Shown here: positions 56,015-57,762 of the stretch, in pieces
How positions within the stretch are numbered: position 1 is the first letter of the stretch
Layout of the letters: every line of letters begins with the position of its first letter
NCBI RefSeq assembly: GCF_023264855.1
Contig: NZ_JAHFUW010000008.1
Location: 1 to 64,000 of the forward strand
Reading direction: 5' to 3'
DNA length: 64,000 bases
Source: Herbiconiux sp.
GTDB lineage: Bacteria; Actinomycetota; Actinomycetes; Actinomycetales; Microbacteriaceae
The notes under the pieces: model-generated
Databases searched by the model: none
Told to the model about the DNA's origin: nothing
What the model saw: only the letters and a program-made list of their open reading frames with translations
Made by a program: the position numbers and the translations under genes

Positions 56015-56647
56015 TCATACGGGCCACACCGGCCGGAACTGCACGCTGATGCGCGGCCCGACCGCCTGCTTGGTCTTCAGCACTGCGTGCTCGTGGGTGC
56101 GCTGACAGCTGCCGCCCATCACCACCAGGTCGCCGTGCCCGACCGGGAAGCGCAGCGTCTCGCCTCCGCCCTTCGGCCGCACGGACAGGGTTCGGGCCGC
56201 TCCTACCGACACGATCGCCACCATCGTGTCGCGATCGATGGTGCGGCCGACCCGGTCGCCGTGCCAGGCCACGCTGTCGTCGCCGGTGCGGTAGAAGCAC
56301 AGCCCGGCCGTCTGGAACACCTGGCCGGGCGGGCGCCCGTAGTGCTCGTTGAGCGCATCCTGGGCCCGGGTGAGCACGAGATCGGGATAGACCGACCCGG
56401 CACCGAAGCGGGAGACGAGCCGGGGCACCTCGACCACGCGGTCGTACATCTCCCGCCGGTCGGCCTGCCAGGGCACGTCGACCGCGAGGCGCTCGAACAG
56501 CGCGTCGGAGTTGGAGACCCACCCCGGCCGCAGGTCGATCCAGGCCCCGTCGCCGAGCACGGTGCGCTGCACGGTTCCCCCGAGATCCTCCAAGACGGGG
56601 TCGGCGGCGAGGTCGTCGAAGAGCGAGGTCTGGAAGTCGATGTTCAT
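56015..56647 (-). CDS. alkB: AlkB-family 2-oxoglutarate/Fe(II) dioxygenase
   Basis: 210 aa from ATG 56647; an upstream in-frame ATG (56674) lies inside the LexA site and is rejected. It oxidatively removes methyl groups from 1-methyladenine and 3-methylcytosine in DNA. Iron ligands: His129-Gly-Asp131 and His187 in THEHAVLK. The 2-oxoglutarate-binding arginine is in GPRISVQFRPVW. It is of the ABH2/3-like, short N-terminal type. TACGAT is 6 bases before the ATG and the SOS box overlaps the -35 region, so it is a clear candidate for LexA control. It interrupts the heme genes. Confidence 0.94.
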   Translation of the reverse strand: MNIDFQTSLFDDLAADPVLEDLGGTVQRTVLGDGAWIDLRPGWVSNSDALFERLAVDVPWQADRREMYDRVVEVPRLVSRFGAGSVYPDLVLTRAQDALNEHYGRPPGQVFQTAGLCFYRTGDDSVAWHGDRVGRTIDRDTMVAIVSVGAARTLSVRPKGGGETLRFPVGHGDLVVMGGSCQRTHEHAVLKTKQAVGPRISVQFRPVWPV

Positions 56648-56653
56648 GTCGCC

Positions 56654-56659
56654 ATCGTA
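56654..56659 (-). promoter_or_regulatory. -10 element of alkB (leaderless type)
   Basis: TACGAT on the minus strand, 6 bases before the alkB ATG and 7 bases downstream of the SOS box. Confidence 0.55.
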
Positions 56660-56666
56660 CGCACAT

Positions 56667-56682
56667 TCGAACATGTGTTCGA
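56667..56682. promoter_or_regulatory. LexA/SOS box
   Basis: Perfect palindromic TCGAAC-ATGT-GTTCGA, matching the Gram-positive LexA consensus (GAAC-N4-GTTC). With a 17-base spacer its outer half would be the -35 region of alkB. It is 20 bases upstream of the alkB ATG and about 80 bases upstream of hemB, which reads the other way. Confidence 0.85.
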
Positions 56683-56751: not shown

Positions 56752-56757
56752 TAGGCT
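56752..56757 (+). promoter_or_regulatory. -10 element of hemB
   Basis: TAGGCT, 6 bases before the hemB ATG. The next bases are GGAGGC, which could also serve as a Shine-Dalgarno, so leaderless initiation is less certain here. Confidence 0.4.
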
Positions 56758-56763
56758 GGAGGC

Positions 56764-57762
56764 ATGAGTTTTGGATCGTTCCCCGATGTCCGGCCGCGCC
56801 GGCTCCGCTCCACCCCGGCGATGCGCCGGCTGGTCGCCGAGACGCGGATCGATCCGGCGCAGCTCGTGCTGCCGCTGTTCGTGCGCGACGACGTCGTGGA
56901 GCCCGTTCCGCTCACCTCGATGCCCGGCGTGCTGCAGCACAGCTTCGACAGCCTGAAGGCGGCGGTCACCGAGGCGGCGGAGGCCGGCCTGGGCGGAGTG
57001 ATGCTCTTCGGCGTGCCGGCCGACCAGGCCAAAGACGCACAGGGCACGGCAGCCACCGACCCCGACGGCGTGCTCAACGCAGCCACGCGCATCGTGGCGG
57101 CCGAGGTGGGAGACGCCCTCGTGGTGCAGACCGATCTCTGCCTGGACGAGTTCACCGACCACGGCCACTGCGGAGTGCTCGACGCCCGCGGCGCCGTCGA
57201 CAACGACGCCACCCTGCTGCGCTACCGCGACATGGCCCTCGAGCAGGCGCGTGCGGGCTCCCAGCTGCTTGGCCTCTCCGGCATGATGGACGGCCAGGTC
57301 GGTGCCGTGCGCACCGCCCTCGACGCGGAGGGCTTCGACGAGGTGGCCATCCTCGCCTATGCCGCCAAGTACGCCTCGGCGTTCTACGGCCCGTTCCGGG
57401 AGGCCGTCGGATCGACGCTGCGCGGCGACCGCAAGACCTATCAGCTCGACCCCGCGAACCGCCGCGAGGGCCTGCGCGAAGCTGTTCTCGATGTGGCGGA
57501 AGGCGCCGACATCGTGATGGTGAAGCCGGCTCTCAGCTACCTCGATCTGGTCGCCGACGTGTCGGCCGCGGTTCCCGTGCCGGTCTGGGCGTACCAGGTG
57601 TCGGGCGAGTACGCGATGATCGAGGCGGCTGCGGCGAACGGCTGGATCGATCGGGAGCGCGCCATCCTCGAGTCGCTCGTGAGCATCCGCCGTGCCGGTG
57701 CCGAAGCCGTGCTCACCTACTGGGCGGTCGAGGTCGCCCGTGTCCTGAAGGGATCAGCATGA
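56764..57762 (+). CDS. hemB: Porphobilinogen synthase (delta-aminolevulinate dehydratase)
   Basis: 332 aa. Condenses two 5-aminolevulinate molecules. The metal/cysteine region reads [16 protein letters not shown], and the two active-site lysines are in [13 protein letters not shown] and [11 protein letters not shown]. The zinc-type cysteines are present, so a Zn enzyme is expected. It starts the second rightward heme unit, after alkB, and overlaps hemL by 4 bases (ATGA). Confidence 0.97.

Follow-up and report, generated by a model that had tools for sequence, protein, structure and literature searches.

We are highly confident that a perfect palindrome upstream of alkB, in the 64,000-nucleotide stretch of Herbiconiux sp. 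DNA analysed here (the window), is the LexA operator of this gene, and LexA very likely represses alkB. SOS control of alkB, which an initial annotation had predicted from the sequence, has strong support from the LexA encoded in the genome, from boxes at further SOS-type genes (ImuA′ and a radical-SAM gene), from conservation of the box at orthologs (29 of 29 alkB loci with upstream sequence) and from published data in two actinobacteria, Streptomyces venezuelae and Mycobacterium tuberculosis.

Position of the box at the predicted alkB promoter

The box (TCGAACATGTGTTCGA, 56667-56682) is the sole exact TCGAACN4GTTCGA in the 64-kb window. Read on the alkB (minus) strand as TCGAACACATGTTCGA, this predicted operator matches 12 of 12 consensus positions, as the initial annotation had claimed, and it is conserved at alkB of relatives. 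An exact box is not expected by chance in the window: across 100 dinucleotide shuffles the mean number of sites was 0.00 and the largest 0. A matrix built from the alkB boxes of 28 relatives assigns the site 30.0, compared with 15.1 for the runner-up in the window and a top maximum of 18.3 across 60 simulated 64-kb Markov-1 windows.

On the minus strand the order is TCGAACACATGTTCGA-ATGTGCG-TACGAT-GGCGAC-ATG. The predicted −10 element of alkB (TACGAT, 56654-56659, minus) lies 7 bases downstream of the box. The distal half-site (TCGAAC, 56677-56682, minus) would serve as the −35 element, with a spacer of 17 bases to the −10 read off the sequence, and the alkB ATG (56647-56645, minus) follows 6 bases below the −10. 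This geometry is as first described, and it places the box over the −35 element and spacer of the predicted promoter.

We also considered an in-frame upstream ATG at 56674, inside the box, as the alkB start. This frame encounters a stop between the box and the ATG in four loci (L018, L019, L020 and L030), so 56647 appears the likelier start. A second, weaker palindrome at 56655-56670 (10/12, score 15.1) has one half-site in common with the main box and overlaps the −10 element; it was rejected as an operator, not being evident by eye in the upstream sequences of relatives.

The alkB gene (56015-56647, minus, 210 aa) encodes a 2OG-Fe(II) dioxygenase of AlkB type (PF13532, E 4e-14). The protein carries the HxD...H and RxxxxxR residues of AlkB 2OG-Fe(II) DNA dioxygenases, which we take to be the expected iron and 2OG ligands, and none of H129, D131, H187, R199 and R205 varies among the 20 proteins aligned. 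Sixteen solved relatives match at E 0.001 or better, every one of them an ALKBH3 or ALKBH2 by name and none E. coli AlkB, and no NCBIfam model matches at E 0.001. Given the ligands and the PF13532 match, these solved relatives and the missing NCBIfam match, AlkB is a family-level name for this protein.

Conservation of the box upstream of alkB

AlkB matches were found in 31 of 99 genomes, the Herbiconiux genome included. The 32 matches yielded 30 loci, two being left out, and 29 of these (the window and 28 relatives) have upstream sequence, the exception being L042 with only 3 bases. All 29 have a box with at least 10 of 12 consensus positions in the region from −160 to +30 relative to the match start. 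At 24 of the 29 loci, the window's own included, an in-frame start codon follows a TAnnnT at a distance of 6-7 bases; the gap is 8 bases in L037. The distance from the box to the TAnnnT is 7 bases in 17 of the 29 loci and 8-10 bases in 7; in one (L035) the TAnnnT adjoins the box, and none occurs within 20 bases of the box in four (L039, L040, L043 and L045), three of which (L039, L040 and L045) have boxes of only 10/12. Because the gap from the TAnnnT to the start codon is 6-7 bases, the alkB transcript probably begins at or very near the start codon, and the mRNA would be leaderless.

A second set comprised the best 80 of at least 590 confirmed named alkB loci, a selection biased to the close relatives of the query and silent on distant AlkB proteins. 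At least four of these 80 (L121-L124) are also among the relatives above, which makes the two sets partly overlapping. Of the best 80 loci, 71 have a box of at least 10/12 in the 120-base upstream window, versus 20 of 2,141 control windows of equal length from the same loci; eight of the other nine score 9 and one scores 8. The best 80 loci carry 33 genus-or-higher labels, and 32 of these have a locus reaching 10/12; Micropruina, with one locus among the best 80, falls below it.

LexA, RecA and further boxes in the genome

The genome encodes one LexA (L046:1468-2142, with PF01726 DNA-binding and PF00717 S24 domains; TIGR00498, 233 bits) and one RecA. The inner motif CGAACN4GTTCG occurs at 22 genome sites versus 1 for the reversed control, and the 16-mer with at most one mismatch at 42 sites versus 8 for the reversed-pattern control. 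We scored the 42 sites with the matrix from the alkB boxes of the 28 relatives, the window's own box being left out. The top five are C33:15858 (31.8), alkB (30.0), ImuA′ (28.6), C21:5311 (27.7) and an Rv2578c-type radical-SAM gene (27.6). A clear break follows, the other 37 sites scoring 20.7 or less, and on these scores we rejected the reading of all 42 near-consensus sites as operators. Since most of the 42 score low, the excess of 42 over 8 does not consist wholly of LexA sites.

The alkB box ranks second among the 42 sites and is thus one of the strongest predicted operators of the genome, a ranking favoured by the alkB-trained matrix. The ImuA′ and radical-SAM sites are support independent of this training bias. 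The ImuA′ gene (NF058630, L055) has the box TCGAACATATATTCGA, with one mismatch to the consensus, just upstream, and is followed by a polymerase-IV-like ORF. The recA box (TCGAACATATCTTCGG) scores 22.1. The lexA box, which has counterparts in congeners, is weaker (18.9), and across the genus lexA boxes reach only 9/12; the alkB palindrome is better than both the recA and lexA boxes of its genome.

Several of these sites have features of their own. At recA (L089), the box lies 252 bases before the family match, and a TGTCGGTG...TTAGCGT stretch downstream of the box presumably resembles a PafBC-type promoter. The best of the 42 sites (C33:15858-15873, L047:1501-1516) is positioned between a divergent 84-aa ORF, which has no Pfam or NCBIfam match, and a MarR-type gene; the gene at this site is a possible uncharacterised SOS gene. 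The Rv2578c-family radical-SAM gene (L081:382-1497) lies directly downstream of its strong LexA-like box and is a candidate SOS gene. The strong LexA-like box at C21:5311-5326 (L059) is surrounded by short, uncharacterised ORFs, and this may be a prophage or a mobile region.

Heme neighbours of alkB

The divergent neighbour of alkB is hemB (porphobilinogen synthase, 56764-57762, plus), identified by PF00490 and PRK09283 matches. Its predicted −10 element (TAGGCT, 56752-56757, plus) lies 6 bases before the ATG, and TA[AG]GCT is found in 9 of 9 genus loci with a divergent hemB. The box is 81 bases from the hemB ATG (56764), in agreement with the initial estimate of about 80, and 69 bases from the predicted −10.

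Within the genus, hemD and hemC are beside alkB in 14 of 14 loci and hemB is its divergent neighbour in 9 of 14, versus 0 of 16 loci outside the genus. The window's hemB, hemC, hemD, hemH, hemL and hemQ were unmatched in the flanks (at most 1.5 kb) of the 16 non-genus loci, one of which (L042) has the 3 upstream bases mentioned above. The box is nevertheless kept at alkB in 15 of 15 non-genus loci with upstream sequence. The earlier suggestion that LexA may also influence heme genes, which had it held would have been the surprise, is therefore unsupported: the box stays with alkB where heme neighbours are absent, and the −10 predicted for hemB itself is well downstream of it. The box is probably unrelated to the heme genes, and hemB is not expected to be under its control. 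In compact congeners, L019 for example, only 44 bases separate the end of the box from the hemB ATG, which brings it near the presumed hemB −35 (counted on the alignment), and an effect of LexA on hemB is conceivable in such congeners.

Ada and alkylation repair

An Ada_Zn-HTH-AlkA fusion is encoded on contig C3 and alkB on contig C37; alkB is neither in an operon with ada nor next to it, as it would be in an Ada regulon. No LexA-like site scoring above 10.3 was found in the 3.2-kb Ada-AlkA locus. Because this locus is separate and has no such site, an Ada-type regulator and LexA probably divide alkylation repair between them. The contrast drawn in the initial annotation between SOS control of alkB here and the Ada response of E. 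coli fits this arrangement.

Proposed control of alkB and alternative explanations

In an undamaged cell, a LexA dimer bound to the palindrome would cover the −35 hexamer and spacer and block RNA polymerase. DNA damage would activate RecA and lead to self-cleavage of LexA, and alkB would then be made together with recA, lexA, the ImuA′-ImuB genes and the radical-SAM gene, from a transcript that probably starts at the ATG. The AlkB protein could then strip methyl groups off alkylated bases. A perfect palindrome would be predicted to give tight repression and comparatively late induction.

Two alternatives concern which genes and which regulators are involved. A single palindrome lies between divergent starts, and one operator could in principle serve both genes, with LexA also repressing or modulating hemB and so tying the SOS response to heme synthesis; the short distance in L019 is in keeping with such an arrangement. 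We consider it very unlikely, given the spacing in the window (81 bases to the ATG and 69 to the predicted −10), the box still present at the 5 of 14 genus loci where hemB was not found within 1.5 kb, and the 16 non-genus loci, none with any of the six hem genes in its flanks (almost no upstream sequence being available in L042). A predominant role of the Ada adaptive response in alkB control, with LexA contributing little, is very unlikely; the genome does encode an Ada_Zn-HTH-AlkA fusion protein, but on a different contig, and a conserved box and a predicted promoter belong to alkB itself.

Two further alternatives concern the palindrome itself. The bound protein cannot be named from sequence alone, and another repressor, for example of phage-type S24 or MarR-type, might occupy the site in place of LexA. 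This is highly improbable, as the motif fits the S. venezuelae LexA motif given in PMC9380542 (tCGAAC-N4-GNNCGa), similar sites are present at ImuA′, recA and lexA of the same genome, and one LexA-type DNA-binding domain was found in that genome. The palindrome might also be a functionless chance occurrence, GC-rich genomes yielding such words at some rate, as the single site of the reversed inner-motif control illustrates; with the exact site in none of the 100 shuffles and a similar placement in 32 of the 33 genus or higher-level labels (best 80 named loci), this explanation has almost no probability. The preferred reading is thus that the palindrome is a LexA operator acting on alkB.

These observations suggest an old link in actinobacteria between direct reversal of alkylation damage by AlkB and the SOS response, in place of a link to Ada. 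The operator, well conserved and on a promoter that is probably leaderless, would also offer a test case for LexA repression of such promoters. We lean towards a broader proposal: alkB may be an ancestral SOS gene of Actinomycetes, leaderless, with an operator nearly fixed over the −35 and spacer, and the operator printed for S. venezuelae may be misplaced, the true palindrome lying about 21 bases upstream.

Comparison with known systems

Since data from S. venezuelae and M. tuberculosis are published, the kind of control described here is already known and the Herbiconiux site adds a case. Our literature search found no paper joining LexA, the SOS response and Microbacteriaceae, and none joining leaderless, LexA and alkB.

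In S. venezuelae, alkB (vnz_32390) is reported as a LexA ChIP-seq target that is 11.02-fold up by mitomycin C, and it is named in the core SOS gene set (PMC9380542). An AlkB-type gene under LexA would be common to both organisms, but the box printed for S. venezuelae (GGTTACGCTGGATC) is no palindrome whereas the Herbiconiux box is a perfect one. Table 1 of that paper places GGTTACGCTGGATC at −20 with a footnote marking it as experimentally validated, and its section 8 names lexA, recA, dnaE2 and uvrA as tested (PMC9380542). Among 392 Streptomyces genomes, a set defined by the genus of G099 (Streptomyces shenzhenensis, carrying L178), this 14-mer occurs in 5, in 3 of them at alkB (L202, L204 and L205). 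At these three loci the 14-mer includes the −10 and is separated from the ATG by a single base; the best LexA-like site starts 21-22 bases upstream of the 14-mer's first base: TGGAACATATTTTCGA in L202 (score 23.2), AGGAACAGATTTTCGA in L205 (12.1) and the weak TCGCTCATGCGTTCGG in L204 (8.0). Neither an AlkB match nor a box was found in the other two genomes. What is printed as the SOS box of S. venezuelae alkB is thus probably the −10 region and misplaced, as judged from other genomes of the Streptomyces set in which the 14-mer is seen at −15 versus the printed −20; if true, this is a likely correction of one published site.

A LexA-linked radical-SAM gene is also listed for S. venezuelae (vnz_31145, Table 1 of PMC9380542), besides the candidate in L081 of Herbiconiux. 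Within the Herbiconiux genome itself, the ImuA′ operator resembles that of alkB in lying just upstream of its gene and differs in that the product is a mutagenesis accessory factor.

In M. tuberculosis, alkB is listed with the genes that mitomycin induces in a RecA-dependent manner, and Rv1000c with the putative SOS-box genes (PMC8151990). AlkB (Rv1000c) is thus alike in being the product of a putative SOS-box gene with RecA-dependent induction. It differs in that, with recA lacking and pafBC silenced, alkB is still mitomycin-responsive and AlkB is overproduced (PMC8151990), and because of this persisting response LexA cleavage may not be the sole input to alkB in that organism. The E. coli ada-alkB operon likewise provides inducible AlkB-type repair of alkylated bases, under Ada control as described in PMC6813329 and PMC1839093, whereas in Herbiconiux Ada is fused to AlkA at a separate locus and alkB carries its own predicted LexA operator.
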